Positions 2,034 through 51,198 of a DNA stretch of 64,000 bases are shown piece after piece. The notes below the pieces were generated by a model. That model was not told the DNA's origin. It saw only the letters and a list, made by a program, of their open reading frames with translations, and searched no databases. The stretch is taken from the NCBI RefSeq assembly GCF_004117855.1, contig NZ_QWBW01000008.1:124001-188000 (forward strand), in the 5' to 3' direction. Within the stretch, counting starts at the first letter, position 1. Every line of letters begins with the position of its first letter. This DNA comes from Modicisalibacter coralii (GTDB taxonomy: Bacteria > Pseudomonadota > Gammaproteobacteria > Pseudomonadales > Halomonadaceae). Both the position numbers and the translations under genes were made by a program.

Positions 2034-2041
2034 TTAGGGAA
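2034..2041. other. left end of MITE copy 1 with TTAG target duplication
   Basis: TTAG at 2034-2037 directly precedes the GGAAACACTG terminus of the element. The same TTAG follows its other end at 2180-2183. A 4-bp YTAR duplication is what the IS5 subgroup of the IS5 family generates, so this copy looks like a clean transposition product. Confidence 0.7.
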
Positions 2042-2179
2042 ACACTGCACAAATGCCTGCACGGGCGAATCGCTGCGTTGCGCGGTGCGCGGAATCCTCA
2101 CATATACCCCATATGCTGCGGTTCCTGTGCGCCGGGCGCCTTGCACTTCATCCCGCTCGCCTATTTGTTCAGCGCTTCC
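2038..2179 (-). mobile_element. MITE copy 1 (142 bp, IS5-like ends)
   Basis: Non-coding element found three times in the window; this copy is inverted relative to the others. The plus strand starts GGAAACACTGCACAAAT and ends ATTTGTTCAGCGCTTCC, imperfect terminal inverted repeats that differ at three positions. It is flanked by TTAG on both sides. It encodes no transposase, so it would need one supplied in trans. It sits between the 3' end of azlD and the promoter side of the PQQ dehydrogenase pair. ORFs predicted inside it read through the repeat and are not credible genes. Confidence 0.8.
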
Positions 2180-2231
2180 TTAGCCGGTAAACGATGGGGT
2201 CGTGATATTAGCAGAAAGTCGTAGGCTTTTA

Positions 2232-3179
2232 TCAGGGCCGGCGTTTGCAACCGCCGGCATTCAGCCACTCAACCGGGCCACGGCCACCACCAGGCCGAAG
2301 GCGGCGACACCGGCGATCACCGGCCACCCCAGGGTGCGGGTGCGCCGCCACACGATCAGGGTAGCGCCGATACCCACCAGTGTCGCGCACCAGCCGACGG
2401 GATCCTGGCGCTGCGGGATCAGCGACACACCGAACAGTGCGGCGATCATCAGCGGCCCCAGCATGCTCAGCCATGCGGGCAGGGCGCCGGAACTGGAAGC
2501 AGACGGCGCCACACAGTGCTGCCAGGGGGATGCTGACATTGGTGTAGCCGCCCAGGGAGAACGTCAGCGCCGCCGCCACGCTGACGCCCAGCGCCAGCGA
2601 CCAGCGTGGCGAGGTGAAGCGCGGTGCCAGCAGTACCAGGAACAGCGCCGGCAGCGCGAACGGCATCACTTCGCCGAGCAGCGGCCAGCGCCGGGTCAAC
2701 CATTCCCCGGCGACGGCGCCGAGCAGACTGCCGGCGATCCAGCTCAGCCAGGCCAGCCCCGCGGCGCCCGCGAACCAGCCGAGGCGCCGCTCCGGCGGCA
2801 TTTGCGGCAGGCGGGTGTGGGCCAGGGCGAAGATCTGGTCGGTCAGGCCGTGCATCAGCCACGGCCACCAGCGGCTGGCGGTCATCCAGGGCGCCAGGTT
2901 GGGGGCATAGACCAGGTGGCGAACGTTGATCAGCAGCGTCAGGGCCACCGTCAACCACAGCGGAGCGCCGCCGGCGGCCATGCCGACGAACAGGAACTGC
3001 GAGGCACCGGCGTAGATCAGGGTCGAGATGGCGACGACCTCCCAGGTCGAGAAACCCGCCTGGACGGCCACGAGGCCGAAAGAGACCGCCACCGGGACAT
3101 ACCCGCCGAGCAGCGGCAGCGCTTCGCGCAGCCCGGCCCTCCAGGCCGGCGACGGGTCGTGCAAGCGAGCATCGTTCAT
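2232..3179 (-). CDS. azlC: AzlC-family permease, C-terminus running out of frame through azlD
   Basis: Large subunit of a branched-chain amino acid exporter (AzlCD / YgaZH type). Its ATG overlaps the stop of the XRE regulator by 4 nt. The first 225 or so residues are typical AzlC: LLGGYVPVAVSFG, YAGASQFLFVG and the LLINVRHLVYAPNLAPW stretch, with alternating hydrophobic segments. Homologues stop near the segment matching SIPLAALCGAV. Here no stop occurs, and the frame continues for about 90 polar, Arg/Gly-rich residues antisense to any hydrophobic logic, over the whole azlD region. This indicates a deletion that removed the azlC stop and the azlD start. Function is therefore doubtful. Confidence 0.8.
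   Translation of the reverse strand: MNDARLHDPSPAWRAGLREALPLLGGYVPVAVSFGLVAVQAGFSTWEVVAISTLIYAGASQFLFVGMAAGGAPLWLTVALTLLINVRHLVYAPNLAPWMTASRWWPWLMHGLTDQIFALAHTRLPQMPPERRLGWFAGAAGLAWLSWIAGSLLGAVAGEWLTRRWPLLGEVMPFALPALFLVLLAPRFTSPRWSLALGVSVAAALTFSLGGYTNVSIPLAALCGAVCFQFRRPARMAEHAGAADDRRTVRCVADPAAPGSRRLVRDTGGYRRYPDRVAAHPHPGVAGDRRCRRLRPGGGRGPVEWLNAGGCKRRP
2261..2539 (-). CDS. azlD: AzlD-family permease subunit, apparently N-terminally truncated
   Basis: The small subunit partnering AzlC. From about residue 18 it matches the AzlD pattern: LPAWLSMLGPLMIAALFG, then two further hydrophobic segments (WCATLVGIGATLIVW and PVIAGVAAFGLVVAVA). The usual first membrane helix before LPAWL is missing. The 17 residues that replace it are polar and come from an overlap with azlC in another frame. 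The only available ATG lies inside the azlC coding region with no clear ribosome-binding site. This gene is probably the remnant of a normal azlD joined to azlC by a short deletion. It may not give an active transporter. Confidence 0.6.
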   Translation of the reverse strand: MSASPWQHCVAPSASSSGALPAWLSMLGPLMIAALFGVSLIPQRQDPVGWCATLVGIGATLIVWRRTRTLGWPVIAGVAAFGLVVAVARLSG

Positions 3180-3703
3180 GGTTGCTGCCCGCCGGCGTAG
3201 ACGATCGTCACCAAAAACGTCGCCGCCTCGTGAGTGGTGCGATAGGCGTGGGGGCGGTCGGCGGCGAAGGTGTGCCGATCGCCGGCACCCAGGGTCTGCA
3301 GCGACTCGACGGGGCCGGCCGCGAGCGAGCCGCCGATCATGCAGATGGTCTCCTGCGTTCCCGGCGAGTGAGGCGCGGCGAGACGCTCGGTGTCGGGCTC
3401 GCAGTGCATCCAGTAGGCATCCACGGCCGGGATGTCGTGGCCGCGATCGAGCAACTGGACCCTGACCCCCGCCTCGCCGAGCGTGGCGGTGATCGGCGCG
3501 ACCAGGGCACCGAAGGGGATGTCGAGCTGGATCGCCAGGCGCCACAGGGTATCCAGCGTGGGATTGCCGTCGCCCTGTTCGAGTCGCGACAGGTTCGACT
3601 TGGCGATGCCCGCGCGTGCCGCCAGTTGCGACAGCGACCAGCCGCGGCGCTGGCGCAGCGTCTGCAGGTGCTTTCCCAGGGTATACAATGCCGGCTCGTC
3701 CAT
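3176..3703 (-). CDS. XRE-family regulator with C-terminal cupin domain
   Basis: A 175-residue DNA-binding regulator. Residues 10-65 form a helix-turn-helix (LRQRRGWSLSQLAARAGIAK, then SNLSRLEQGDGNPTLDTLW). Residues 95-170 form a small beta-barrel cupin (GDRHTFAADRPHAYRTTHE). This architecture is common in local regulators of amino acid or amine genes placed next to azlCD. Its stop overlaps the azlC start (ATGA), so it is first in the operon. A tandem palindrome at 3726-3757 lies just upstream of its start and is the obvious candidate for autoregulation. The effector is unknown. Confidence 0.9.
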   Translation of the reverse strand: MDEPALYTLGKHLQTLRQRRGWSLSQLAARAGIAKSNLSRLEQGDGNPTLDTLWRLAIQLDIPFGALVAPITATLGEAGVRVQLLDRGHDIPAVDAYWMHCEPDTERLAAPHSPGTQETICMIGGSLAAGPVESLQTLGAGDRHTFAADRPHAYRTTHEAATFLVTIVYAGGQQP

Positions 3704-3725
3704 GCGCGCTCCGTACCTATCGGCT

Positions 3726-3757
3726 GTTCTCTAAAAAGAACGTTCTATAAAAGGAAC
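3726..3757. promoter_or_regulatory. tandem operator, probably for the XRE-cupin regulator
   Basis: Two adjacent 16-bp units, GTTCTCTAAAAAGAAC and GTTCTATAAAAGGAAC, sit head to tail. Each is itself a dyad with GTTC and GAAC half-sites, and a perfect AGAACGTTCT palindrome forms at the junction. The site lies 23 bp upstream of the regulator start codon, with an AT-rich core that could overlap its -10 box. Repression by the adjacent regulator is inferred. Confidence 0.7.
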
Positions 3758-3991
3758 AGTGCGGCGTCAACCCATGAATTGCGCGGCGTGGCACGAAACG
3801 CCCGCCGCACGGGGCCGGCACGGCCGGTAGCGGGCTCGGGCAGGGCGCAGCGGGAGGGGCCGTCCGCTCGGCCAACGTCGCATCAGCGACACCCATGACG
3901 CTTTTGGGATTCCCCCCGTCGCTTCCAAGCGTCGAGTCGGCCAGGCTCAGGGCTATTCTGCGGCCATGACGCCAATCCTCGGGAGCCGACC

Positions 3992-4969
3992 ATGACCCCG
4001 CAAGCCCTGCACGACGACGCCATCGTCATCGACGGCCTGATCATCGCCAAGTGGAACCGCGCGCTGCTGGAAGACATGCGCAAGGGCGGCCTGACCGCCG
4101 CCAACTGCACCGTGTCGGTGTGGGAAGGCTTCCAGGCGACGGTCGACAACATCGTCAGAAGCAACGCCCTGATGGCCGAGTGCAGCGACCTGGTGCGCCC
4201 GGTGTACACCACCGCCGACATCACCCGCGCCAAGGAGGAGGGCAAGACCGGCATCATCTACGGCTTCCAGAACGCCCATGCCTTCGAGGATCAGATCGGC
4301 TACGTCGAGATCTTCAAGAAGCTCGGCGTGGGTATCGTGCAGATGTGCTACAACACCCAGAACCTGGTCGGCACCGGCTGCTACGAGCGTGACGGCGGCC
4401 TGTCCGGGTTCGGCCGCGAGATCGTTGCCGAGATGAACCGCGTGGGCGTCATGTGCGATCTGTCCCACGTCGGCGAAAAGACCTCCCGTGAGGTGATCGA
4501 GGCCTCCGAGAAGCCGGTCTGCTACTCCCACTGCCTGCCCGCCGGCCTCAAGGAGCACCCGCGCAACAAGTCCGACGAGGAACTCAAGTTCATCGCCGAC
4601 CACGGTGGCTTCGTCGGGGTGACCATGTTCACGCCCTTCCTGCGCGCCGGCGTCGACGCCACCGTCGACGACTACGTCGAGGCCATCGAGTACGTGATGA
4701 ACATCGTCGGCGAGGATGCCATCGGCATCGGCACCGACTTCACCCAGGGTCACGACCAGGACTTCTTCGAATGGCTGACCCATGACAAGGGCTACGCCCG
4801 GCGCCTGACCAACTTCGGCACGATCATCAATCCCGAGGGCATCCGCACCATCGGCGAGTTCCCCAATCTCACCGAGGCGCTGCTGCGTCGCGGCATGAGC
4901 GAGACCCAGGTGCGCAAGATCATGGGCGAGAACTGGGTGCGCGTCCTGAAGGACGTCTGGGGCAGCTAA
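3992..4969 (+). CDS. M19-family (membrane dipeptidase-like) protein of the dimethylglycine operon
   Basis: 325 residues, first gene of the dgc cluster. The same gene heads the equivalent Pseudomonas aeruginosa locus (PA5396), so the neighbourhood is conserved. The fold is that of peptidase family M19: DLSHVG, CYSHC, HPRNKSDEEL and GIGTDF are present. The first metal-ligand motif (DGHxD in canonical dipeptidases) reads DGLIIAKWN, the usual metal-binding Glu region reads FQNAHAFED, and the substrate-binding His region reads CYNTQNLVG. A normal two-zinc dipeptidase site is therefore unlikely. The role in betaine catabolism is unknown. ATG follows a GGGAG ribosome-binding site. Confidence 0.85.
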   Translation: MTPQALHDDAIVIDGLIIAKWNRALLEDMRKGGLTAANCTVSVWEGFQATVDNIVRSNALMAECSDLVRPVYTTADITRAKEEGKTGIIYGFQNAHAFEDQIGYVEIFKKLGVGIVQMCYNTQNLVGTGCYERDGGLSGFGREIVAEMNRVGVMCDLSHVGEKTSREVIEASEKPVCYSHCLPAGLKEHPRNKSDEELKFIADHGGFVGVTMFTPFLRAGVDATVDDYVEAIEYVMNIVGEDAIGIGTDFTQGHDQDFFEWLTHDKGYARRLTNFGTIINPEGIRTIGEFPNLTEALLRRGMSETQVRKIMGENWVRVLKDVWGS

Positions 4970-4975
4970 AGCATT

Positions 4976-5060
4976 CAGAAGGAAGAGGAGAGGAGCAAGA
5001 GCGCGGCCGCCGCGCGTTTTTCCACCCTCTTCCCCCTTATCTCTTCTTTCTTCTTATAAC
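4976..5060. repeat. polypurine/polypyrimidine hairpin with GC core and T-run
   Basis: A purine-rich stretch (about 4978-5000) faces a pyrimidine-rich one (about 5023-5054) across a GC-rich core at 5001-5015 (GCGCGGCCGCCGCGC) followed by TTTTT. The core plus T-run resembles an intrinsic terminator; the outer arms could form a longer imperfect stem. It separates the M19 gene from the rest of the operon, so it may attenuate transcription or stabilise the upstream mRNA. Confidence 0.55.
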
Positions 5061-5081
5061 GATAATTCGAGGAATCCAACC

Positions 5082-5627
5082 GTGACCAAAATGGCCCCCG
5101 AACTGCCCATCGAAGTGGACAGCGAGACCGGCGTGTGGACCACCGACGCGCTGCCGATGCTCTATGTGCCACGCCACTTCTTCATCAACAACCACATCGC
5201 CGTGGAAGAGGCGCTGGGTGCCGAGAAATACGCCGAGATTCTCTACCACGCCGGCTACAAGAGCGCCTGGTACTGGTGCGAGAAGGAGGCCGAATGCCAC
5301 GGTCTCGCGGGGGTGGACGTCTTCGAGCACTACATGACGCGGCTCTCCCAGCGCGGCTGGGGGCACTTCATCACCGAGGCGATCGACCTCGACGCCGGCA
5401 CCGCCCAGGTGCGCCTCGAGCACAGCGCCTTCGTCTATCAGCTCGGCAAGGTCGGGCGCAAGGTCGAGTACATGTTCACCGGCTGGTTCGCCGGGGCCAT
5501 GGACCAGATTCTCGAGGCCCGCGGCAGCGATCTGCGCACCATCGCCGAGCAGACCCAGAGCGCCGCCGAGGAAGGCTGCGACGTCGGCCGCTTCACGGTC
5601 GTTCCCCGTCATTACCTGGCAGGTTGA
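5082..5627 (+). CDS. DUF5943-type protein of the dimethylglycine operon
   Basis: 181 residues, matching the small conserved protein found directly before dgcA in Pseudomonas (PA5397). It has no signal peptide or membrane segment. Aromatic and His/Cys-rich stretches are visible (YKSAWYWCEKEAECHG, VPRHFFINNH). The fold is probably related to the V4R small-molecule-binding group, which is a family-level guess. The start is taken as GTG with a GAGGA ribosome-binding site 9 nt upstream; an in-frame ATG follows at 5091. It ends 10 nt before dgcA, so the two are translationally close. Biochemical role unknown. Confidence 0.8.
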   Translation: MTKMAPELPIEVDSETGVWTTDALPMLYVPRHFFINNHIAVEEALGAEKYAEILYHAGYKSAWYWCEKEAECHGLAGVDVFEHYMTRLSQRGWGHFITEAIDLDAGTAQVRLEHSAFVYQLGKVGRKVEYMFTGWFAGAMDQILEARGSDLRTIAEQTQSAAEEGCDVGRFTVVPRHYLAG

Positions 5628-5637
5628 GGTTCCCGAG

Positions 5638-7722
5638 ATGGCATTCGATGCGTTGTTCAAGCCGATCGAGATCGGCAATCTCACCATTCGCAACCGCGTG
5701 GTCAGCACCGCCCACGCCGAGGTCCATGCCACCGACGGCGGCATGACCACCGATCGCTACGTCAAGTACTACGAGGAGAAGGCCAAGGGCGGCTGCGGAC
5801 TGTGCATCTGCGGCGGCTCCTCGCCGGTGTCGATCGACAGCCCCCAGGCCTGGTGGAGCTCGGTCAACGTCTCCACCGACCGGATCATTCCGCACTTCCA
5901 GAACCTGGCGGACGCCGTGCACAAGCATGGCGGCAAGATCATGATCCAGATCACCCACATGGGCCGCCGCTCGCGCTGGGACGGCTTCGACTGGCCGACC
6001 CTGCTGTCGCCGTCGGGCATTCGCGAGCCGGTGCACCGCTCGACCTGCAAGACCATCGAGGAAGAAGAGATCTGGCGGGTCATCGACGACTTCGCCCAGG
6101 GCGCGCGGCGCGTGAAGGAAGGCGGACTCGACGGCATCGAGCTGTCGGCCGTGCACCAGCACCTGATCGATCAGTTCTGGAGTCCGCGCGTCAACAAGCG
6201 CGAGGACCAGTGGGGCGGCAGCTTCGAGAATCGCATGCGCTTCGGCATGGAAGTCATCAAGGCGGTGCGCGCCGAGGTCGGTGACGACTTCGTGGTCGGC
6301 CTGCGCATCTGCGGCGACGAGTTCCACCCGGACGGCCTGACCCACGACGACATGAAGCAGATCGCCGCCTACTACGATGCCACCGGCATGATCGATTTCT
6401 TCGGCGTGGTCGGCTCGGGGTGCGATACGCACAACACCCTGGCCAACGTGATCCCCAACATGTCCTATCCGCCGGAGCCGTTCCTGCACCTGGCGGCGGG
6501 TATCAAGGACGTGGTCAGCGTGCCGGTGATCCACGCCCAGAACATCAAGGACCCCAACCAGGCCAGCCGTATCCTCGAGGGCGGCTACGTCGACCTGGTG
6601 GGCATGACCCGCGCGCACATCGCCGACCCGCACCTGATCGCCAAGATCAAGATGGGCCAGACCGACCAGATCCGGCAGTGCGTGGGCGCCAACTACTGCA
6701 TCGACCGCCAGTATCAGGGGCTCGACGTGCTGTGCATCCAGAACGCCGCGACCTCGCGCGAATACCTGGGCCTGCCCCACGAGATCGCCCCCAGCGACGG
6801 GCCGAAGCGCAAGGTGGTGGTGGTCGGCGGCGGTCCCGGCGGCATGGAGGCGGCGCGCGTCGCTGCCGAGCGCGGCCACGACGTTACCCTGTTCGAGGCA
6901 TCGGAGCAGATCGGCGGCCAGATCACGCTCGCCGCCAAGGCGCCGCAGCGCGACCAGATCGCCGGCATCACCCGCTGGTACCAGCTCGAGCTGGCGCGGC
7001 TCAAGGTCGACCTGCGCGTGGGCACCCGCGCCGACGAGGCGACCATCGCCGACCTGCGGCCGGACATCGTGGTGCTCGCCACCGGCGGCCAGCCCTTCCT
7101 GTCGCAGGTGCCCGAATGGGGCTATTCCGAGGATCGCGGACAGAGCCTGGTGGTCAGTACCTGGGACATCCTCGGCGGCGCCGTGGAGCCCGGCAAGAAC
7201 GTGCTGATCTACGACACCATCTGCGAATTCGCCGGCGTCTCGGCGGCGGACTACCTGGCCGACAAGGGCGCCAAGGTCGAGATCGTCACCGACGATATCA
7301 AGCCCGGCGCGGCGGTCGGCGGGACCACTTTCCCGACCTATTACCGCAGCCTCTACGAGAAGGAGGTGATCATGACCTCTGACCTGGCGCTGCACAAGGT
7401 CTATCGCGAGGGCGATGCCCTGGTCGCGGTGCTCGAGAACGAGTACACCGGCGCCCAGGAGGAGCGGGTGGTCGACCAGGTGGTGGTCGAGAACGGCGTA
7501 CGCCCCGACGAGGCGCTCTACTACGCGCTCAAGGAACGCTCCCGCAACAAGGGGCAGGTCGACATCGAGGCGCTCTACGCCATCCAGCCGCAGCCCGCGC
7601 TGGCGACCCTGGACGATGACCCGGATGCCGGCTTCGTGCTGTTCCGGCTGGGCGACTGCACGGCGCCGCGTAACACGCATGCGGCGATCTACGATGCCCT
7701 GCGGATCTGCAAGGACTTTTAA
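5638..7722 (+). CDS. dgcA: dimethylglycine demethylase, flavoprotein subunit DgcA
   Basis: 694 residues. Residues 1-370 form an old-yellow-enzyme-type TIM barrel (FKPIEIGNLTIRNRVV, AVHQHLIDQFWSPRVNKRED). Residues 385-690 form an FAD/NAD-binding module (VVVVGGGPGGMEAARVAAERGHD). It is related to trimethylamine and dimethylamine dehydrogenases and oxidatively demethylates dimethylglycine to sarcosine with DgcB. The cluster-binding region reads CVGANYC then CIQN from about residue 347. The second cysteine of the trimethylamine dehydrogenase motif CxxCxxC is replaced by Ala. The gene order M19, DUF5943, dgcA, dgcB, ETF matches P. aeruginosa PA5396-PA5401, which is the main reason for the specific assignment. 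Confidence 0.92.
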   Translation: MAFDALFKPIEIGNLTIRNRVVSTAHAEVHATDGGMTTDRYVKYYEEKAKGGCGLCICGGSSPVSIDSPQAWWSSVNVSTDRIIPHFQNLADAVHKHGGKIMIQITHMGRRSRWDGFDWPTLLSPSGIREPVHRSTCKTIEEEEIWRVIDDFAQGARRVKEGGLDGIELSAVHQHLIDQFWSPRVNKREDQWGGSFENRMRFGMEVIKAVRAEVGDDFVVGLRICGDEFHPDGLTHDDMKQIAAYYDATGMIDFFGVVGSGCDTHNTLANVIPNMSYPPEPFLHLAAGIKDVVSVPVIHAQNIKDPNQASRILEGGYVDLVGMTRAHIADPHLIAKIKMGQTDQIRQCVGANYCIDRQYQGLDVLCIQNAATSREYLGLPHEIAPSDGPKRKVVVVGGGPGGMEAARVAAERGHDVTLFEASEQIGGQITLAAKAPQRDQIAGITRWYQLELARLKVDLRVGTRADEATIADLRPDIVVLATGGQPFLSQVPEWGYSEDRGQSLVVSTWDILGGAVEPGKNVLIYDTICEFAGVSAADYLADKGAKVEIVTDDIKPGAAVGGTTFPTYYRSLYEKEVIMTSDLALHKVYREGDALVAVLENEYTGAQEERVVDQVVVENGVRPDEALYYALKERSRNKGQVDIEALYAIQPQPALATLDDDPDAGFVLFRLGDCTAPRNTHAAIYDALRICKDF

Positions 7723-7733
7723 CCCCAGTCATA

Positions 7734-7872
7734 AGCTGTAAGCCGGAAGCTGTAAGAGCACCTTCCCAACGCATGACGAGGTGAGCATCCGAGGGGCTCA
7801 TCTCGCCATGCGGGTTGTGAAAGGATCTCCGCCAGAAGGGGACTTACCGCTTACAGCTTAAGGCTTACAGCT
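7734..7872. repeat. nested inverted-repeat element between dgcA and dgcB
   Basis: The 23-bp sequences at 7734-7756 and 7850-7872 are inverted copies of each other with 21 matches, built from repeated AAGCTGTAAG units. Inside them a second stem pairs 7771-7786 with 7796-7811 (14 of 16). The whole 139-bp stretch could fold as one long hairpin or cruciform. It carries no ORF. It may be a small intergenic repeat, or a processing and stability element that sets the DgcA to DgcB ratio. Confidence 0.75.
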
Positions 7873-7896
7873 CCTCATTGAGGAGAGGTGAGTACC

Positions 7897-9879
7897 ATGC
7901 TCGATATCCTCCTGCCGATCCTGATCTTCTCCGCCCTGGCGCTGGCGGCGATCGGCGCCGTGCGGCGCATTCGCCTGTGGCGCCAGGGGCGGCCGTCGCC
8001 GGTGCCCGTGCTGCGTGGTCTGGCCGCGGTGCCGCGGCGTTATCTGGTCGATCTGCACCACGTGGTGGCGCGCGACAAGGTGATGTCCAACACCCACGTC
8101 GCTACCGCCGGCGGCTTCGTCGCCGCCATGGCGCTGGCGATCGTCGTCCACGGCCTGGGGCTGGCCGAGGGCGTGCTGGGCTGGCTGCTGCTGGCGGCCA
8201 GCGCGACGATGTTCGCGGGTAGCCTGTTCGTCGCCCGGCGCCGGCGCGACCCGCCGGCGAGGCTGTCCAAGGGCCCCTGGATGCGTCTGCCCAAGAGCCT
8301 GATGGCGTTCTCGCTGGGCATCTTCGCCGTCACCCTGCCGGCGGTGGGCGTGCTGCCCGCCGACGCCGGCGGCTGGCTGGTGGCGGTACTGCTCGCCGCG
8401 GTGGTGGCCTGGGGGCTGGCCGAACTGGTGTTCGGCATGACCTGGGGCGGGCCGATGAAGCACGCCTTCGCCGGTGCCCTGCACCTGGCCTTCCATCGCC
8501 GGCCGACGCGCTTTTCGGTCAAGCGCGGGGGCGAGGGCCGCTCGACCGGGCTCAAGGCGCTGGACCTGGACGACGCCGACGCGCCGCTGGGCGTCGAGAA
8601 GCCCGCCGACTTCACCTGGAACCAGTTGCTGGGCTTCGACGCCTGCGTGCAGTGCGGTCGCTGCGAGGCGGTGTGTCCGGCCTTCGCCGCCGGCCAGCCG
8701 CTCAATCCCAAGAAACTGGTGCAGGACATGGTGGTGGGCATGGTCGGTGGCAGTGATGCCCGCTACGCCGGCAGTCCATACCCGGGCAAGCCGGTCGGCG
8801 AGCACGCCGGCGACCCCCACGGGCCGATCGTCGCCCGGGAAGGCACCGCCCTGGTCGACGCCGAGACGCTGTGGTCGTGCACCACCTGTCGCGCCTGCGT
8901 CGAGGAGTGCCCGATGATGATCGAGCACGTCGACGCCATCGTCGACATGCGGCGCTTCTTGACCCTGGAGCGCGGCGAGACCCCCAACAAGGGCGCCGAG
9001 GTCCTCGACAACCTGATCGCCACCGACAACCCTGGCGGCTTCGATCCCGGCTCGCGACTGCACTGGGCGGCGGATCTCGACCTGCCGCTGATCGCCGATC
9101 GCGGCGAGGCGGAAGTGCTGCTGTGGCTGGGCGACGGGGTCTTCGACATGCGCAACCAGCGCACCCTGCGTTCGCTGGTCAAGGTGCTGCGCGCCGCCCG
9201 GGTCGATTTCGCGGTACTCGGCAACGAGGAGCGCGACAGCGGCGACGTGGCCCGCCGGCTGGGCGACGAGGCGACCTTCCAGCGTCTCGCCCGGCGCAAT
9301 ATCGCCACGCTGTCCCAGTATCGCTTCGACCGCATCGTGACCTGCGATCCGCACAGCTTTCACGTGCTCAAGAACGAGTACGGCGCCCTGGGCGGCGACT
9401 ACGAGGTCTTCCACCATAGTACCTACCTGCACACCCTGATCGAGGCCGGCGCGCTCAGCATCACGCCGACGGCGCTGGGTCGGGTGACCTATCACGACCC
9501 CTGCTACCTGGGGCGCTACAACGGCGAATACGCCGCGCCCCGGGCGGTGCTCGAGGCCCTCGGTGTCGAGCTGGTCGAGATGGCGCGTTCCGGTTACCGC
9601 TCGCGCTGCTGCGGCGGTGGCGGCGGGGCGCCGATCACCGACGTGCCCGGCAAGCAGCGTATCCCCGACATGCGCATGAACGACGTGCGCGAGACCGGCG
9701 CCGAGCTGGTCGCGGTGGGCTGTCCGCAGTGCACCGCCATGCTCGAGGGCGTGGTGGCCGAGGACCGTGCCGAGATCAAGGACATTGCCGAGCTGGTCGC
9801 CGCGGCGCTCGGCGATGACGCCACACCGGCGCCGGCCGCCAGCGATACGCGGCGCACGACCGAGGAGGTGATGGGATGA
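7897..9879 (+). CDS. dgcB: dimethylglycine demethylase, membrane iron-sulfur subunit DgcB
   Basis: About 660 residues. The N-terminal 180 residues contain several membrane helices (1-25, 70-90, 93-110, 130-150 and 160-180). Two 4Fe-4S motifs follow, CVQCGRCEAVCP near 250 and CTTCRACVEECP near 327. The C-terminal half has the cysteine-rich CCG domain of heterodisulfide reductase type (HDPCYLGRYNG and CCGGGGG near 570). It takes electrons from DgcA and links them to the ETF pair or membrane. The ATG at 7897 is preferred because AGGAGAGGTGAG lies just upstream; a GTG at 7888 is in frame. It overlaps the ETF alpha gene by 4 nt. Confidence 0.9.
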   Translation: MLDILLPILIFSALALAAIGAVRRIRLWRQGRPSPVPVLRGLAAVPRRYLVDLHHVVARDKVMSNTHVATAGGFVAAMALAIVVHGLGLAEGVLGWLLLAASATMFAGSLFVARRRRDPPARLSKGPWMRLPKSLMAFSLGIFAVTLPAVGVLPADAGGWLVAVLLAAVVAWGLAELVFGMTWGGPMKHAFAGALHLAFHRRPTRFSVKRGGEGRSTGLKALDLDDADAPLGVEKPADFTWNQLLGFDACVQCGRCEAVCPAFAAGQPLNPKKLVQDMVVGMVGGSDARYAGSPYPGKPVGEHAGDPHGPIVAREGTALVDAETLWSCTTCRACVEECPMMIEHVDAIVDMRRFLTLERGETPNKGAEVLDNLIATDNPGGFDPGSRLHWAADLDLPLIADRGEAEVLLWLGDGVFDMRNQRTLRSLVKVLRAARVDFAVLGNEERDSGDVARRLGDEATFQRLARRNIATLSQYRFDRIVTCDPHSFHVLKNEYGALGGDYEVFHHSTYLHTLIEAGALSITPTALGRVTYHDPCYLGRYNGEYAAPRAVLEALGVELVEMARSGYRSRCCGGGGGAPITDVPGKQRIPDMRMNDVRETGAELVAVGCPQCTAMLEGVVAEDRAEIKDIAELVAAALGDDATPAPAASDTRRTTEEVMG

Positions 9880-11964: not shown

Positions 11965-12073
11965 GTCGGTACCTCGGCGTCCTGACTTGTCATGATCCTC
12001 GCGATGCGGCCCAATTGGGGTTCATTCGACACGAAGGCGTCGCGGTGCGATCAGCGCCGCGGCGGCGAGGGGC

Positions 12074-13366: not shown

Positions 13367-13369
13367 CGC

Positions 13370-40093: not shown

Positions 40094-40134
40094 GGGGGGC
40101 GTGTCCTCTTGTTGTCCGTTTTGCTTGCTGGGCC

Positions 40135-40174
40135 TTGTACGAAAACTGTCTGCGCTCGTCGCCTTTTCGTACAA
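40135..40174. promoter_or_regulatory. perfect 11-bp inverted repeat upstream of pgi
   Basis: TTGTACGAAAA at 40135-40145 and TTTTCGTACAA at 40164-40174 are perfect inverted copies, 18 bp apart. They lie 42-81 bp upstream of the pgi start. The spacing between half-site centres (29 bp) fits a regulator that contacts two widely spaced sites, or a looped structure. No regulator gene is adjacent. Confidence 0.6.
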
Positions 40175-40300
40175 ACCCTGGATGAATCGTGTCACCCGAT
40201 CTTCTCAGAGGGCCTGACGCTTGTCACCGGGCGCTCGCCGGCTGCGCCGAGCCTGTGGCCTCGTGCCACCTGGCCGTCACCGCCACCGGGCGCCGAGGGG

Positions 40301-42060: not shown

Positions 42061-43025
42061 GTCACCTCCTCGTTGTGCAATGCCTCGCAGGCGCCCAGCA
42101 GCCCCGTCCAGGGTGCCGTGACCACCCACACCGGAATGTCGGCATTGTAAGCGCTCATGCGGCCCTTGTCGGCAAAGGCGCGGCGGAAGTCGCTGTCCGG
42201 CAGCCAGTCGAGCAGGCGCGGCACGATCCCGCCGCACAGGTAGACGCCGCCACGCGCGCCCAGGGTCAGGGCCGCGTCGCCGCAGACGTCACCCAGTATC
42301 TTGAGAAAGCGCAGCACGCTGGCCTCGGCCAGGCTCTCGCCGTCCCGCGCCGCCTGGGTGACCTGAGCGGGGCTGTCGAAGCGCGTTTCCGCGCCCTGCA
42401 GTCGGGCGAAGGCGTGATACAGGTCGAGCAGCCCCTGGCCGCAGAGCAGGCGTTCCACCGAGACGCGCCCGTAGCAGTCGCGGAAGTAGGGCAGCAGTTG
42501 CTGTTCGACGGCATCGGTGGGCGCGAAGGTCACGTGGCCCCCCTCGGTGGACAGCGGAATCCAGGCGTGACGGCCGGGGAAGAGGCCGGCCACGCCCAGC
42601 CCGGTGCCGGGGCCGATCACCAGGCAGGCACGATGCGCCTCGGCCTCGCCGCTGCCCACCGGGACCAGGTCGTCGGCGGCGACATGGGGGACGCCGAGGG
42701 CCTGGGCGGTGAAGTCGTTGATCACCTTGAACAGGGTCAGGTCCAGCGCCGCCTGGACCTGGCGCTTGGAGAAGCGCCAGGCGTTGTTGGTCATACGCAC
42801 TTCGTCGTCGTGGACCGGGCAGGCGAAGGCCAGACAGGCCTCCTGCGGCACGGACGCGTCGCTCACCCCGGCCGCCTCGAGGTAGGCGTGGATCGCCGCC
42901 TCGAGGGTCGGGTAGTCGGCGCAGGCCAGGGTACGGATCTCGTAGGGCGCGAAATCCCCCGGCCGCACCAGGGCGAAGCGGGCGTTGGTACCACCGATGT
43001 CACCGATCAGGGCCGGACGGCTCAT
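42057..43025 (-). CDS. glk: glucokinase
   Basis: 322 residues, almost the length of E. coli Glk (321). [13 protein letters not shown] binds ATP phosphate, [17 protein letters not shown] holds the sugar-binding Asn and Asp region, and [14 protein letters not shown] is the second phosphate loop. It phosphorylates glucose with ATP. It overlaps edd upstream and the mutarotase downstream by 4 nt each, so the four genes are tightly coupled. Confidence 0.95.
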
Positions 43026-44875: not shown

Positions 44876-44908
44876 GGCAACCTCTTGTCACGGTCGGGGG
44901 TGTGAGTA

Positions 44909-44929
44909 TGTGTGTAAATTTACCAAAAA
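44909..44929. promoter_or_regulatory. HexR-like palindrome in the edd-gapA divergent promoter
   Basis: GTAAATTTAC at 44914-44923 is a perfect palindrome inside TGTGTAAATTTACCAAA. It is AT-rich and lies between edd and gapA. HexR controls these same genes in Pseudomonas and Shewanella and binds similar TGTAAT-type palindromes, so HexR control is plausible. No hexR gene is in the window. Confidence 0.5.
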
Positions 44930-45077
44930 AATTACTTGAACGTCGTCATCCTTTGGGCCAAATTGTGGCTAAAGCGTAGGATTATTTCATCGTGGTTGCC
45001 TCCCGGGCCGGCCTCCTCCGGCAGCGGGCATGCGGCCGCGTATCGGGTTCACGTCAGTCGTATCGAAGGAGGCCACC

Positions 45078-46079
45078 ATGACCTTGCGTGTCGCCATCAA
45101 CGGGTTCGGACGTATCGGTCGCAACGTGCTGCGGGCGCTGTATGAGAACGGCTATCGGGATCGCATCCAGGTGGTCGCCATCAACGATCTGGGCGATCCG
45201 GCGCTCAACGCCCATCTGCTCAAGCATGATAGCGTGCATGGCCGTTTCTCTCCGGAAGTGGGCCACGACGACGAATCGCTGAGCGTGGGCGAGGACCGCA
45301 TCGCCACCTTCGCCCAGCGCGATCCCGCGCAACTGCCCTGGGCGTCGCTCGAGATCGATCTGGTCATGGAGTGCACCGGGCTGTTCACCAAGCGCGAGGC
45401 CGCCGCCAAGCATCTGCAGGCCGGCGCGCAGCGGGTGTTGATCTCGGCGCCCAGCCCGGATGCCGATGCCACCGTGGTCTATGGGGTCAACGACGATGTG
45501 CTGACCGGCGAGCATCGGGTGGTCTCCAATGCCTCGTGCACCACCAACTGCCTGGCGCCGGTGGCCAAGGTGCTCAACGATGCGGTGGGTATCGAAAACG
45601 GCCTGATGACCACCGTGCATGCCTACACCAACGACCAGAATCTCTCGGACGTCTATCACAAGGATCCGTACCGGGCGCGCAGCGCCACGCAGTCGATGAT
45701 TCCCACCAAGACCGGCGCCGCGGCGGCGGTGGGGCTGGTGCTGCCGGAACTCGACGGCAAGCTCGACGGGCTGGCGGTGCGCATTCCGGTGATCAACGTC
45801 TCGCTGGTCGATCTGACCTTCACCGCCGGTCGCGACACGTCCAAGGAAGAGATCAACCGGTTGATGGAGCAGGCGGCCGCCGACTCGTCGGTGCTGGCGG
45901 TCAACGCCCAGCCGCTGGTGTCGATCGACTTCAATCACGACCCCAACTCGTCCACCTTCGACGCCAACCACACCCGCGTCAACGGGCGCCTGGTCAAGGT
46001 GATGGCGTGGTACGACAACGAGTGGGGCTTCTCCAACCGCATGCTGGACACCGCCCTGGCGATGCAGGCCGCCGCCTGA
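45078..46079 (+). CDS. gapA: glyceraldehyde-3-phosphate dehydrogenase, type I
   Basis: 333 residues. The NAD-binding [15 protein letters not shown] starts the chain. The catalytic Cys lies in [21 protein letters not shown] and RVPVINVS-like ([15 protein letters not shown]) segments follow, and [14 protein letters not shown] ends the domain. It oxidises glyceraldehyde 3-phosphate. The start ATG follows AAGGAGG at 5 nt. Divergence from the edd operon fits co-control of glucose catabolism. An intrinsic terminator lies at 46199-46222. Confidence 0.96.
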
Positions 46080-46198
46080 GGGGTGTCCCACCGGGTGTGG
46101 TGGCGCGCCGGTGAAAACGCTTCGCGCACTCACGGCTCCGCACGGAATGTTGCGCCGCCGCGCCGCCACCTTCCATGACTTGAGCTAGCGAGTGCTTG

Positions 46199-46222
46199 GG
46201 GTGCCTTTGGGCACCCTTTTTT
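46199..46222 (+). terminator. rho-independent terminator of gapA
   Basis: GGGTGCC and GGCACCC pair around TTTG and are followed by TTTTTT. It is 120 nt after the gapA stop. The rest of the 361-bp gap to the next gene shows no further feature apart from a possible promoter near 46270-46430. Confidence 0.85.
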
Positions 46223-46440
46223 CTTGCGCTGTCTCATGCTTTCGGCGGATTGCGGGGCGGCTTTCTTCAGCAGTGGTCGGCACAGCTGCTAGGCTTTTCT
46301 CGATCCATGGGCGCAAGAACCACCCCGACGACCACGCGTCTTTGCTGATACACTTGGGTCGGAAGCTTCCATTCACCCGGCGGAAGGCGGTGGGCGTGTG
46401 CCCGGTACCGTCTCGGCCATGACGACTGTGTACCAGGACC

Positions 46441-46794
46441 ATGCGTGACAGTGTTGCCCAGGCCCACCTGCTGATCGGTGCGACGCTGCGGGATCCGCAG
46501 CGCCAGCGCGAGGGGCGTGTCGTGGGCGTGGATCAGACCCGCGACGTACCGGCATTGTGGCTGGTATGGAGCGACCAGTCGAGGGCCGAGCGCGTGACCC
46601 TCAGCCGGTCCGAGTTGAGCCGCCTGGTCGAGGGCTGTGCTCCCCAGCAGCGCGCGGCTCCGGCGATCGATGACGATGGCGGGCGGCGTGCGAACGTCGC
46701 TGCCGGCGCCGACCGCGTGCGCCGTTCGAGGTCCGAGGTGCGGGGCGGGGCGTCCCCGGCCGCGGTGGCCTTGAAACGTACCGGCGGTGAGTGA
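46441..46794 (+). CDS. hypothetical protein (117 aa)
   Basis: A small cytosolic protein that I do not recognise. The first 60 residues look structured (LLIGATLRDPQRQREGRVVG, ALWLVWSDQSRAERVTLSRS). The rest is Arg/Ala/Gly-rich and low in complexity. The ATG follows ACCAGGACC, a weak ribosome-binding site. It ends 63 nt before the cyclase gene on the same strand. It may be a real accessory gene, but the C-terminal composition is close to that of chance reading frames in this GC-rich DNA. Confidence 0.4.
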   Translation: MRDSVAQAHLLIGATLRDPQRQREGRVVGVDQTRDVPALWLVWSDQSRAERVTLSRSELSRLVEGCAPQQRAAPAIDDDGGRRANVAAGADRVRRSRSEVRGGASPAAVALKRTGGE

Positions 46795-46857
46795 CCGGCC
46801 ACGCGGAGCGTGCGCCCCGGCGGTGTCCAGGGAATCGGAAGAGGGGGGACGGTGTGC

Positions 46858-48549
46858 ATGGTGGCATCGCCGTTACAGTTGTTGCCGCGGTTCATGGACG
46901 CGATGCTGGGGGCATCGCCCGCCGTCGTCTATGCGACCGATCCGGGGTGGTGGCAGGGGCGCCTGCACTACCTGGGAGTCAACGTCGCCGAGCTGTGCGG
47001 TATCGAGCGCGAGGCGCTGCGCGAGTGCCCCCAGCGCTGGCTGGAGTGCATCGACGCCAGTTGTCGTGAATCGCTGTTCGCGCAGCTCGAGACGGCCCGT
47101 CACGACGGCACTTCCCGCCTTTGCCTGCAGTACGCCGTGTTCCATCTCGACGGCACTCGTCATCACCTGCAGGACGACATCGTCCTGCATCGCGGCACCG
47201 ACGGCGAGCTGGTCGAGCTGGTCGGCTCGCTGGTCGACGTCACCGAGCGTCAGACGCTGCTGGAGCGCTTCGAGAAGCTCAGCGAGCAGCTTCCCGGCAC
47301 CCTCTATCAGTGCCGGCTGGCCCCCGACGGACGCCTCGACTTTCCCTTCGTCAGCGCCGGTATCCGGCGCCTCTTCGGCCTTGCCCCGGAGACCGTGATG
47401 GGGCGGGCCTCGGTGGCACTGGAACGGGTCCATTCCGAGGACGGCGAGGGGCTGTGGCGCAGCATCCTGCGCAGCGCACGGCGCCTCAGCGTGTGGCGTC
47501 ACGAGTTCCGCTACCACCATCCCGATGGCTACCAGCTGTGGGTGCATGGCCAGGCCAAGCCGGAAAGACAGCCGGATGGCAGCATTCTCTGGCATGGCTT
47601 CTGTGAAGACGTCACCCTGCGCCGACAGGCACAATTGGCACTCGCCGAGAACGAGCGGCGCTATCGCTTCATCGTCGAGAACGTCAGCGACCTGATCCTG
47701 TTGCTCGATGCCGATGGGCTGTGCCGCTTCGCCTCGCCCTCGGTCGGCCGGATTCTCGGCCATGCGCCCCAGGATCTGCAGCTGCGCCCGATGATCGAAC
47801 TGCTGCCGCCGGACGACGCGTCGCGTGTCCAGCGGCACATTCACGAAACCGCGCGGATGGGCAGCAACCTGCGTCTCGAGCTTCGCGCGCGTCACGCCCA
47901 GGGGCACTACGTATGGCTGGAGACGGCCTGTTCGCCCTATGTCAGCCCGCTCAATGGTCGTTACGAGTGGATCCTCGCGGTGGGGCGCGACGTCACCGAC
48001 CGCAAGCTGCGCGAGATGAAGCTGCACGAGCTGTCGACCATCGACAGCCTCACCGGCGCCCTCAATCGCGGCGCCTTCCTGGGGTGTCTGCGCAGCGCGC
48101 TGGAGGCAGCCGATCCCTCGGCCGCGCGATCCTCGCTGGTGATCTTCGATATCGACCACTTCAAGGCCATCAACGATACTTGGGGGCACGCCGCCGGTGA
48201 TCTGGTGCTCGCCAGCCTCGGCGAGATCTGCCGCAGCACGCTGCGTGCCCACGACATCTTCGGGCGCATCGGCGGTGAGGAGTTCGCCCTGGTGCTGGTC
48301 TCGCAGCCGCTTCAGGAGGCCATCGGGCTCGCCGAGCGACTGCGCGGGAAGTTCGAGAACGTGCTGGTCGAGTTCCACGGCGAATGGCTCAACTTCACGG
48401 TCAGTTTCGGTGTCGCCGAACGCCGCGACGACGAGCCCATCGAGGATCTCATGCACCGGGCCGACATGGGCCTCTATGCCGCCAAGCGGCACGGCCGCAA
48501 CCGGGTCCATCGGGCGCCGGGCGAGCCGACGGACGACAAGACGCCGTGA
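46858..48549 (+). CDS. diguanylate cyclase with three PAS domains
   Basis: About 563 residues, no membrane segment. Three PAS domains run at about 8-125, 140-260 and 262-390 (the third with SVGRILGHAPQDLQ and WILAVGRDVTDRK). A GGDEF domain fills 400-550. FGRIGGEEF near residue 470 is an intact catalytic loop, and RAHD five residues before it is an RxxD inhibitory site. It should make c-di-GMP in response to a cytosolic signal; the second PAS core (WVHGQAKPERQPDG) has no obvious haem or flavin residue. The start may also be GTG 46852, which has a better-spaced AGAGGGGGG site. Confidence 0.9.
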   Translation: MVASPLQLLPRFMDAMLGASPAVVYATDPGWWQGRLHYLGVNVAELCGIEREALRECPQRWLECIDASCRESLFAQLETARHDGTSRLCLQYAVFHLDGTRHHLQDDIVLHRGTDGELVELVGSLVDVTERQTLLERFEKLSEQLPGTLYQCRLAPDGRLDFPFVSAGIRRLFGLAPETVMGRASVALERVHSEDGEGLWRSILRSARRLSVWRHEFRYHHPDGYQLWVHGQAKPERQPDGSILWHGFCEDVTLRRQAQLALAENERRYRFIVENVSDLILLLDADGLCRFASPSVGRILGHAPQDLQLRPMIELLPPDDASRVQRHIHETARMGSNLRLELRARHAQGHYVWLETACSPYVSPLNGRYEWILAVGRDVTDRKLREMKLHELSTIDSLTGALNRGAFLGCLRSALEAADPSAARSSLVIFDIDHFKAINDTWGHAAGDLVLASLGEICRSTLRAHDIFGRIGGEEFALVLVSQPLQEAIGLAERLRGKFENVLVEFHGEWLNFTVSFGVAERRDDEPIEDLMHRADMGLYAAKRHGRNRVHRAPGEPTDDKTP

Positions 48550-48596
48550 CGCGCACGCACGGCCACCGCGCCACGACCACGAAACAAGGAGAAACC

Positions 48597-49445
48597 ATGC
48601 GCACCCTGCTCAAGCTGCTGTGTCTGCTACCCGTCCTGCTGATCCTTTCGCCGGCTCAGGCCCAGGAGGAGGGCAAGGCGGACACCTCGCCGGTGACCAT
48701 CGCCCAGGGCCCGCGGGTCGTCGGCGAACCGTTCACGTATTCCACCGGCGGCCAGACCTACCAGGGCTACCTGGCACGCAACGTCGCCGACGACGAGCCC
48801 CGCCCGGCGGTGCTGATCGTCCACGAATGGTGGGGGCTCAACGACTACGCCAGGGCGCGCGCCGACCAGTTGGCGGCACTGGGCTTCGTGGCGTTGGCCG
48901 TCGACATGTACGGCAACGGCGAGACCACCACCCACCCCGACGAGGCCGGCCAGTTCGCCAGCCGGGTGATGCAGGACTGGCCCACCGCCCGCGCCAGCCT
49001 CGAGGCGGCGATGGCCAAGCTCAGTCAGAATCCGGCGGTCCGCGGCGACCGCATGGCGGCGATCGGTTACTGCTTCGGCGGGGGCGTGGTGATGAACATG
49101 GCGCTCGCCGGGATGCCCATCAAGGCGGCCATCAGCTTTCACGGCAGTCCCACCCGGGCGGTGACCAACCCGCAGCCCTTCGACGGCGTGGTGCAGATCC
49201 ACAACGGTGCCGACGATCCGCTGGTCAAGCGTGACGATCTCAAGGCAATGGCGCGCACGCTCAAGGCCCAGGGCGCCAAGGTCAAGGTGGTCAACTACCC
49301 CCACGCCAAGCACGCCTTCACCAATCCCCACGCCGATGCTCTCGGCGCCGAGGACGACCTGCCGCTGGCCTACAACGCCGCTGCCGATGCCGCCTCCTGG
49401 CAGACCGCGCTGCTGGCGCTCGACAAGACCCTCAACGGCGACTGA
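48597..49445 (+). CDS. exported dienelactone hydrolase-family protein
   Basis: 282 residues. A signal peptide (1-23, cleavage after AQA) makes it periplasmic, while classical dienelactone hydrolases are cytosolic. The triad is visible as Cys in GYCFGGG, Asp in NGADDPLV and His in HAKHAFTNP. VLIVHEWWGLNDYARARAD is the oxyanion part. It probably hydrolyses a lactone or ester outside the cytoplasm. ATG follows AAGGAG at 7 nt. Confidence 0.9.
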   Translation: MRTLLKLLCLLPVLLILSPAQAQEEGKADTSPVTIAQGPRVVGEPFTYSTGGQTYQGYLARNVADDEPRPAVLIVHEWWGLNDYARARADQLAALGFVALAVDMYGNGETTTHPDEAGQFASRVMQDWPTARASLEAAMAKLSQNPAVRGDRMAAIGYCFGGGVVMNMALAGMPIKAAISFHGSPTRAVTNPQPFDGVVQIHNGADDPLVKRDDLKAMARTLKAQGAKVKVVNYPHAKHAFTNPHADALGAEDDLPLAYNAAADAASWQTALLALDKTLNGD

Positions 49446-49525
49446 GCCTGGCCGGCCCGGGTTCCCGGGTCGGTTCCGGACAACCCCGTCGTTCGGCCGC
49501 CGTCGCCGGGCGTCGCAATACCTTT

Positions 49526-49555
49526 CCGGGGGCCGGCCTCCCGGGGGCCGGCCTC
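49526..49555. repeat. tandem repeat, two 15-bp units
   Basis: CCGGGGGCCGGCCTC occurs twice without interruption. Each unit contains a GGCCGGCC palindrome, so both hairpins and slippage are possible. Confidence 0.8.
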
Positions 49556-49657
49556 CGAGGGCAATCCGCACCAAGCGTGCGGACTGCCCATGGCGTCGCT
49601 TCCCCGGGGAACGCGTTGGGCACGGTTCTCGACCGGGGCGCATGGCGATACCCTATC

Positions 49658-49799
49658 GGAAGCTCTGAACAAATAGGCGAGCGGGATGAAGCGCAAGGCG
49701 CCCGGCGCACAGGAACCGCAGCATATGGGTTATATGTGAGGATTCCGAGCACCGCGCAACGCAGCGATTCGCCCGTGTAGGCATTTGTGCAGTGTTTCC
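49658..49799 (+). mobile_element. MITE copy 2 (142 bp)
   Basis: Same element and length as at 2038-2179, in the opposite orientation. It starts GGAAGCTCTGAACAAATAGG and ends GCATTTGTGCAGTGTTTCC. The flanks (TATC and CACC) do not form a direct repeat, so the duplication has decayed or the copy arose by recombination. It lies 68 bp before the start of the FemAB/GNAT-like gene and may carry part of its promoter region. Confidence 0.8.
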
Positions 49800-49866
49800 C
49801 ACCCACGCGATCGCGATGGGCATAGGCTGCCCTTTGCCGCGACGAACGCCACAGGGAGAGCGAGAC

Positions 49867-51030
49867 ATGCGCTTTGCGATCGAGACGCTGAACGCCGTCG
49901 AGGCGCTGCCGGCAACGGCCTGGAATGCGCTGGTGCCGGCCGATCAGCCGTTTCTGCGCCACGAGTTCCTGCATGCCCTGGAGGCGAGCGGTGCGGTGTC
50001 GCCCGCCAGCGGCTGGACGCCGCGGCATCTCGCGGTGCGTCTCGACGGGGTGCTGGTGGCATTGCTGCCCCGTTATCTCAAGGATCACTCCTTCGGCGAA
50101 TATGTCTTCGACTGGGCCTGGGCGGACGCCTGGGAACGTGCCGGGGGCGACTATTACCCCAAGGGGCTGACGGCGGTGCCCTTCACCCCGGTGCCCGGCG
50201 CGCGGCTGCTGATGGGGGATGGCGCGGCGCGGCGCGAGGTGATGGCGGCGCTTGGCGAGCATTGCTGTGACGCGACGCTGTCGAGCTGGCACCTGCTGTT
50301 CGCCGAGGACGCCGAGATCGACGACTGGCTGGCGGTGCGGCCCGAGCTGCTGGAGCGGGCCGCGGTGCAGTTCCAGTGGCGCGATGCGGGGTTCGGCGAC
50401 TTCGCGGGCTTTCTCGCCGCGATGAGCGCCAAGCGCCGCAAGGAGGTGCGCCGCGAGCGGCGCCGGGTCGCCGAACAGGGCCTCGAGCTGGTGCGCCTGG
50501 AGGGCGAGGCGATCGATGCCGCGGCCCTCGAGCACTTCTACCGCTGTTACCGGATCACCTATTACGAGCGCGGCCAGCAGCCCTACCTGTCGCTGGATTT
50601 CTTCCGCCGCCTGCGCGAGACGATGCCCGAGGCGCTGCTGCTGGTCCAGGCGTGGCACGGCGCGCGGCCGGTGGCCGCCGCGCTCTGCCTGCAGGGCAGC
50701 GAGACCCTCTACGGGCGTTACTGGGGCAGCGAGGTCGAGGCCGACTGCCTGCACTTCGAGGCCTGCTACTACCAGGGCATCGAGCATTGCCTGGCGAAGG
50801 GGCTGACGCGTTTCGATCCGGGCACCCAGGGCGAACACAAGCTGAGCCGCGGTTTCGCGCCGCGCCGGCTGCGCTCGCTGCACTTCATCGCCCACCGGGG
50901 CTTTCGTGACGCGGTGGCGCGCTTCTGCGCGGAGGAGCGCGAGCACGTCGCGGCCTATGCGCGTCACGCCGAGACACGGCTGCCGTTTCGTCGCGACCAC
51001 GATGCCGCTGGGGAAGCGCTGAACAAATAG
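49867..51030 (+). CDS. FemAB/GNAT-like protein (peptidogalycan biosynthesis family), C-terminus altered by MITE
   Basis: 387 residues of the family long named DUF482 (peptidogalycan biosynthesis/recognition). MSAKRRKEVRRERRRVAEQG, FYRCYRITYYERGQQPYLS and FDPGTQGEHKLSRGF are family motifs; the fold is that of an acyltransferase, and the substrate is unknown. The stop codon lies inside MITE copy 3: the last five residues (EALNK) are encoded by its left end. The insertion therefore replaced the original C-terminus by a few residues. The gene lies between two copies of the element. Confidence 0.85.
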   Translation: MRFAIETLNAVEALPATAWNALVPADQPFLRHEFLHALEASGAVSPASGWTPRHLAVRLDGVLVALLPRYLKDHSFGEYVFDWAWADAWERAGGDYYPKGLTAVPFTPVPGARLLMGDGAARREVMAALGEHCCDATLSSWHLLFAEDAEIDDWLAVRPELLERAAVQFQWRDAGFGDFAGFLAAMSAKRRKEVRRERRRVAEQGLELVRLEGEAIDAAALEHFYRCYRITYYERGQQPYLSLDFFRRLRETMPEALLLVQAWHGARPVAAALCLQGSETLYGRYWGSEVEADCLHFEACYYQGIEHCLAKGLTRFDPGTQGEHKLSRGFAPRRLRSLHFIAHRGFRDAVARFCAEEREHVAAYARHAETRLPFRRDHDAAGEALNK

Positions 51031-51198
51031 GCGAGCGGGATGAAGCGGGCGTCGCCACGCCGCAAGGCGCCCGGCGCACAGGAACCGCAGCATATGGGGT
51101 ATATGTGAGGATTCCGACCGGGCTGGCGTTCCAGCACCGCGCAACGCAGCGATTCGTCGGGGACGCCGAGTTCGTGCAGGCATTTGTGCAGTGTTTCC
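51012..51198 (+). mobile_element. MITE copy 3 (187 bp) with CTGG duplication
   Basis: Starts GGAAGCGCTGAACAAATAGG and ends GCATTTGTGCAGTGTTTCC, flanked by CTGG on both sides (51008-51011 and 51199-51202). It is 45 bp longer than copies 1 and 2 because of three internal insertions of 14-16 bp. It provides the stop codon of the upstream gene and lies 60 bp before the kefC-like gene. No transposase is encoded. Confidence 0.85.

Follow-up and report, generated by a model that had tools for sequence, protein, structure and literature searches.

The BOX elements of pneumococcus, like the family described here, are a modular repeat. For ERIC-like repeats we know of no identified mobiliser, nor do we know of a mechanism for the insertions that ERIC elements carry, some of which reportedly keep an RNA fold. 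We examined a stretch of 64,000 nucleotides from Modicisalibacter coralii (the window; G000:C18:124001-188000 in our numbering, in which G000 is this organism's own genome) that contains three copies of a miniature inverted-repeat transposable element (MITE). Like the ERIC/IRU repeats of enterobacteria, which are intergenic, similar in size and form one long imperfect hairpin (PMC2267715), this element folds into a long rod. Precise internal insertions occur in both, including a homologous cassette of ~70-80 nt at a corresponding place in the right arm. The two differ in that TA stands at ERIC termini (PMC2229807, in the portion cited here), whereas the MITE has a 4-bp YTAR target; their terminal repeats also differ, and the MITE has an autonomous insertion sequence (IS) with matching ends.

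Other described systems are comparable in part. The element resembles IS5-family MITEs in its ends, in duplicating a 4-bp target and in having a partner transposase that fits model IS5_4; unlike them, it has a conserved structured core, exchangeable modules and a core common to elements with other ends. The RUP repeats of pneumococcus are likewise MITEs whose partner (IS630-Spn1) was deduced from matching ends, but they involve another IS family and target, and RUP as described in the cited portion of that source has no modules (PMC2229807). The SDR of cyanobacteria are reportedly very small mobile repeats (PMC3116915, excerpted text), whereas the units described here, hairpins of 14-16 nt, occupy fixed positions within a structured MITE.

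We conclude that the family is an ERIC-like structured MITE, non-autonomous and of the IS5 type (IS5 subgroup). The account as a whole, in which an IS5-type MITE mobilised in trans carries a structured core and gains and loses modules after landing, we hold to be probable, with good confidence. It draws on the anatomy of the transposon, on an IS in relatives whose ends match, on empty sites and covariation, on modules gained and lost between orthologs, and on cassette homology. The features of the three copies are as follows.

2034..2037, no strand: target duplication TTAG to the left of copy 1 (a single TTAG at the empty site of G002 and G003)
2038..2179, minus strand: MITE copy 1, 142 bp, without modules
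2180..2183, no strand: target duplication TTAG to the right of copy 1
49658..49799, plus strand: MITE copy 2, 142 bp, without modules and without a target duplication (flanks CTATC / CACCC)
51008..51011, no strand: target duplication CTGG to the left of copy 3
51012..51198, plus strand: MITE copy 3, 187 bp, with modules A, B and C
51028..51030, plus strand: TAG within copy 3, now the stop of the FemAB-like open reading frame 49867-51030
51046..51060, plus strand: module A of copy 3, 15 nt
51117..51132, plus strand: module B of copy 3, 16 nt (hairpin GCTGG-CGTT-CCAGC, including the next 3 nt)
51159..51172, plus strand: module C of copy 3, 14 nt net
51199..51202, no strand: target duplication CTGG to the right of copy 3

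The ends of the element read GGAAGCGCTGAACAAAT (GGAAGCTCTGAACAAAT in copy 2) and GGAAACACTGCACAAAT, and the 45-bp surplus of copy 3 consists of inserts of 15, 16 and 14 nt. No Rfam family was matched at its gathering score in the window. The initial annotation had placed three copies of 142, 142 and 187 bp here, with TTAG and CTGG duplications around copies 1 and 3; all three were found again, as were the duplications on both sides of each. Its three internal insertions of 14-16 bp are real in copy 3, but it overlooked that they recur as modules. Its assignment to the non-autonomous IS5-like MITEs holds in light of further copies, an IS with a matching right end, YTAR-like duplications and empty sites, each described below; none of the three outcomes that it had named as refuting came about.

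Further copies are numerous. When as many as two mismatches are tolerated, the end pattern occurs in the own genome at 41 forward and 37 reverse places, compared to 1 and 1 for a reversed control. Thirty-five copies without modules served to build a covariance model (R1), which returned at least 76 matches there, at least 74 of them at E <= 2e-5 and three of them in the window; this count is a lower bound, with 150 of 3258 first-look candidates scored. Of the two matches beyond the 74, one is a copy already counted, read on its reverse strand. Because the end-pattern places lie far above the control and are joined by the covariance-model matches, the copies are not chance occurrences. Used as a DNA query, the 142-bp element found matches in 17 of 38 genomes, the own genome included, and a pattern scan of genome contigs gave at least 105 stretches with a match. 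One source genome of these stretches is Gammaproteobacteria bacterium MFB021; apart from its contigs, they come from genera that we take to be Halomonadaceae. The MITE family is thus widespread in the Halomonadaceae. The 187-bp element had no match in the plasmid and phage collections, and no account of a Halomonadaceae MITE was found in the open-licence literature that was searched.

Target duplications were assessed in 268 distinct near-full copies among the fetched loci. Perfect 4-bp flanking repeats were present in 103 of these (18 expected with shuffled partners) and in 22 of the 34 own-genome copies. Their consensus is YTAR: the first position is Y in 103 of 103, followed by T in 88, A in 84 and R in 101. 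For copies 1 and 3, related species have clean empty sites. At the place of copy 3, G002 reads ...GATGCCG-CTGG-CTGAG..., and at that of copy 1, both G002 and G003 read ...GATCG-TTAG-TCGG.... The element is also absent from the place of copy 3 in G003, G007 and G009 and from that of copy 1 in G009 and G001, in alignments too diverged for a clean junction; at the aligned place of copy 2 in G002, G003 and G009 it is absent as well, with poor alignments and a site that is not clean. Copy 3 has replaced the stop of a FemAB-like gene (49867-51030), the frame of which crosses the left end to reach the TAG at 51028-51030. The gene thereby acquires EALNK as its C-terminal residues; in G002 the empty site has the sequence GCC GCT GGC TGA.

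An IS5 relative with matching ends exists in related genomes. This autonomous IS5-family element is ~1225 bp long, and its transposase (domains DDE_Tnp_1 and DUF772) matches the NCBIfam model IS5_4 with 313 bits (cutoff 140). Its right end is identical to that of one MITE subfamily, and its left end lies 2-3 mismatches from the searched end pattern. Ten of the 14 tabulated IS elements have the right end GGAAACGCTGCATAAAT or GGAAACGCTGCACAAAT (L089, L092, L093 and L097 end otherwise), and nine have the left end GGAANCNCTGAWCAATT (all except L082, L085, L086, L092 and L093). Several of the tabulated elements have open frames of 336-345 aa and YTAR-like repeats. The flanking 4-base repeats include CTAG (L085), TTAG (L086), TTCA (L087) and TTAA (L081); the flanks are imperfect in L078 (TTAG / CTAA) and L095 (CTAG / TTAG), and those of L089 and L097 do not match. 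PF05598 is present in 60 of 151 family genomes; within the genus, the IS5_4 transposase was detected in 6 of 14, and its frame is intact in G013 and G010.

Several observations weigh against this account of mobility: 165 of the 268 copies have no perfect 4-bp repeat; the partner IS gave no match in the 74 contigs of the own genome; and the MITE and the IS have only the terminal ~17 bp in common. Given that common part, the MITE is not a plain internal deletion of the IS. Mobilisation would, on the strength of the matching ends, take place in trans through the IS5_4 transposase. Two own-genome candidates for the partner were rejected. The sole PF05598 protein (C18:47352) lacks the ends, and the PF01609 fragments at contig ends represent another transposase, with no exact end pair flanking them (L074 holds a MITE copy). 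An alike PF01609 fragment stands at six own-genome contig ends (C55, C70, C29, C34, C8 and C12); an unrelated multi-copy IS therefore probably breaks the assembly.

Between its ends, the element is a conserved rod with compensatory changes, and one strand folds much better than the other. RNAalifold applied to alignment A1 yielded a single rod of 39 pairs, with 98.4% of cells paired. Changes on both sides occur in 19 of the 39 pairs, a number that none of 500 shuffles reached; slid-partner controls gave 1-5 pairs. The consensus fold has an energy of -38.6 kcal/mol on the plus strand vs. -20.9 kcal/mol on the reverse strand, and single-sequence z-scores were -3.06 and -2.46. Wobbles in the RNAalifold pairs whose commonest type is Watson-Crick comprise 41 G-U and 6 A-C cells. 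The initial annotation had considered the family "young or under constraint". These alternatives are not exclusive: the window subfamily is near-identical in the own genome, and diverged cross-species copies show structural constraint.

Could a plain MITE look like this? The palindrome and its covariation would then be by-products of template switching within the element, which keeps the arms alike, with no selection on the folded strand. Quasi-palindromes are known to be corrected by template switching, and the modules resemble replication products. Furthermore, L469 (G012), an ortholog of L399, has lost the whole centre of the rod and retains a short hairpin, as in palindrome-induced deletion, a process that is reportedly on record. 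The evidence for a favoured strand is also open to challenge: the alignment was built on the plus strand, and the asymmetry is weak both on pairs common to the two strands (13 G-U vs. 4 A-C) and on the pairs of the reverse-strand fold (16 vs. 11), the latter agreeing with the plain MITE. However, the arms have not been made perfect: read across the alignment, the copies retain identical mismatches and bulges. The wobble asymmetry in the RNAalifold pairs, along with what is left of it in the strand-shared pairs, also runs against this explanation. We thus regard it as possible but rather unlikely, and prefer a fold under selection.

A second alternative is that the element serves intercistronic mRNA in the manner of ERIC, as a site for RNA processing or stability, and that the host keeps it. 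The rod-like RNA fold is compatible with such a role. In addition, each of the three window copies has the same direction as the genes on either side, as called by our own script. ERIC reportedly exposes an RNase E site, and Correia/NEMIS elements are reportedly cut by RNase III (PMC10969869 and PMC2229807, excerpted text). The orientation of a larger number of copies argues otherwise. In a first set, tandem contexts of module-bearing copies were ++ in 17 and -- in 4 cases, vs. 19 and 30 for module-free copies (p 0.002); in an independent set the direction was reversed, with 6 and 19 for module-bearing and 29 and 20 for module-free copies (p 0.006). Pooled, the orientation is even (23 and 23 vs. 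48 and 50), which speaks against a host-selected cis function, here and in our own account. This alternative is therefore doubtful. A gene-orientation bias of module-bearing copies is likewise rejected, the first signal having reversed; the sense of the left neighbour, compared between module-bearing and module-free copies in the pooled data, gave p 0.08. Among the 268 copies, those with modules lie between convergent genes in 28 cases and between divergent genes in 12.

The 14-16-bp insertions are hairpin modules at fixed sites, and element lengths fall in steps of ~15 nt. Classed by regular expressions, the 268 copies comprise 172 with no module, 52 with B, 21 with AB, 7 with ABC, 5 with BC, 5 with A, 2 with BD, 2 with AC, 1 with C and 1 with D; three of the 172 exceed 150 nt and have other inserts, and an alignment-based classing missed many A modules. 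The module B hairpin parses in 86 of 87 cases, with the loop CGNN and the stems GCTGG/CCAG(C,T) or TCAGT (79), TCCGA/TCGGC (5), ACCGG/CCGGC (1) and GCTCG/CGAGC (1). A fourth module site, D, is seen in the left arm of L274, L275 and L279; what it holds is nearly the reverse complement of module C, in the mirrored position.

Orthologous copies, defined as pairs with both flanks matching by blastn (n=21), show these modules coming and going. Fifteen pairs are separated by indels of 8 nt or more, which in each case involve a module or cassette, and six are concordant. In 12 of the 15 the indel coincides exactly with a module or cassette; L397/L379, L275/L365 and L368/L333 are untidy. For example, L287 (none) and L399 (ABC) have an element identity of 99.3% and flank identities of 95.0% and 97.7%, and L155 and L206 are one 51-nt double-hairpin insert apart, again with an element identity of 99.3%. 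In the triplet of L403 (B), L308 and L329 (both none), flank identities point to G013 (L329) as the outgroup; if it is, a single gain explains the states more economically. Some features of this sample temper its weight: the copies were partly picked by a module-bearing query, the pairs are not all independent (L403 is used twice), and L326/L367 and L275/L365 have an element identity of only ~75%. Gene conversion as the source of the module differences received no support, with junction-near differences at 17/262 vs. 60/1157 (p 0.45; 10 of the 15 discordant pairs). That the modules were instead set in separate MITE lineages before transposition, and inherited from there, is very improbable. 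In its favour, module C always accompanies B in the second subfamily (29 own copies aligned) and copy 3 carries ABC where the site in G002 is empty, but the 15 discordant pairs, L287 and L399 among them, already contradict it.

Some MITE copies have, in addition, a multi-hairpin insert of ~76 nt that is homologous to an insert of E. coli ERIC. A profile of four Halomonadaceae inserts, run against 2.1 Mb, ranked its own kind first (six inserts), followed by L493 (E 3.8e-7, the best cross-group value), L491 (3e-4), L493 again (4.5e-4), L487 (1.4e-3) and L492 (0.012); the first unrelated sequence had an E of 0.31. L491-L493 had been fetched for matching the L487 insert; in L493, the left-arm cassette that scored best was located in the flank. 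The reverse search was weaker: after its own kind, the ERIC insert profile placed all six Halomonadaceae inserts ahead of any unrelated sequence (E 0.0013 to 0.16, against 1.3 for the first unrelated one), and a single one of the six passes the HMMER inclusion threshold. A 24-nt hairpin, ACAAATTCGTCAGGAACGAATTTG, is identical across the groups, occurring exactly in L493 (E. coli), L386 and L401. The shared cassette is a direct link between the repeats of Halomonadaceae and those of E. coli. One E. coli ERIC copy (L493:89-280) has two cassettes, one per arm, and the left one is closest to the Halomonadaceae cassette. The L487 insert is present in 633 of 5426 E. coli genomes, and a 42-nt ERIC core in 5375 of 5426.

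The cores themselves are another matter. On ERIC loci, R1 reached 10.9 bits (E 0.057, full-length in L483; 8 loci, three identical) and a second covariance model, R2, 5.4 bits (E 0.45; 6 loci). Neither value is significant, and unrelated sequence scores up to 13.4 bits in 43.7 kb. ERIC terminal repeats and the TA target were not found in the MITE, whose ends are GGAAGC... and ...GTTTCC and whose target is YTAR; E. coli ERIC copies begin TATACTCTAAATAATT or alike.

The structured core is, in turn, common to elements with other ends, both in the own genome and in other families of the order. Of 21 further, weaker R1 matches in the own genome that were read (L408-L427), 15 have GAGGGTGTTTACAAA-like ends and six have still other ends; judged by eye, 12 of the 15 have perfect 3-bp repeats. 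Some other-ended elements carry module B, in either arm. No transposase was identified for the GAGGGTGTTTACAAA-like elements. The pattern ACCGGGCTGGCGNNCCAG occurs in the own genome at 26 exact and 6 one-mismatch places (control 1 and 0); those read are other-ended elements and partial repeats of the 3' half of tRNA-Gly, and L454 looks like a chance match in coding sequence. Module B sits at the T-loop position of such partial repeats beside intact tRNA-Gly(gcc) genes in L434 and L453 (own genome) and in L205, the last of which (L205:5356-5825, Billgrantia saliphila) holds three of them with a spacing of 81 bp. Of the 194 genomes of the order searched with R1, 26 had a match at E <= 1e-4, and 22 of those 26 lie beyond the family; 16 candidates were scored per genome, and the E-values are rough. 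In seven out-of-family loci that were read, the core is present and the ends are different. A cross-family alignment of 22 elements has 21 predicted pairs, 20 of them with double changes by raw count.

Our preferred reading of the family, a trans-mobilised MITE with a structured core and modules, would operate as follows. An IS5-family (IS5 subgroup) transposase would act in trans, recognising the ~17-bp ends and inserting the element at YTAR-like 4-bp targets. The core between the ends would fold, as the plus strand, into one long imperfect rod, and selection on the element would preserve this fold while the sequence drifts. After landing, fixed places of the rod would gain or lose A, B, C, D and multi-hairpin cassettes of 51 to 76 nt precisely; these modules may move by replication template switching or by short-tract copying between dispersed hairpins. 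The folded form may act as RNA, most likely by making intergenic insertions tolerable or processable in transcripts, a role of the kind reported for ERIC and NEMIS.

More tentatively, and at less than even odds, the modules and cassettes may themselves be mobile without a transposase, entering and leaving structured hosts cleanly (MITEs with different ends, ERIC, the T-loop of partial tRNA-Gly repeats), and the core may likewise be carried between transposon ends. If this is true, ERIC would be one branch of a gammaproteobacterial superfamily with exchangeable ends, core and modules. In the present family, a structured element resembling ERIC comes with a candidate IS5-family partner and exists in many copies in culturable halophiles. 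With orthologous copies that differ mainly by a module, its mobilisation, the selection on its fold and the origin of its insertions become testable.

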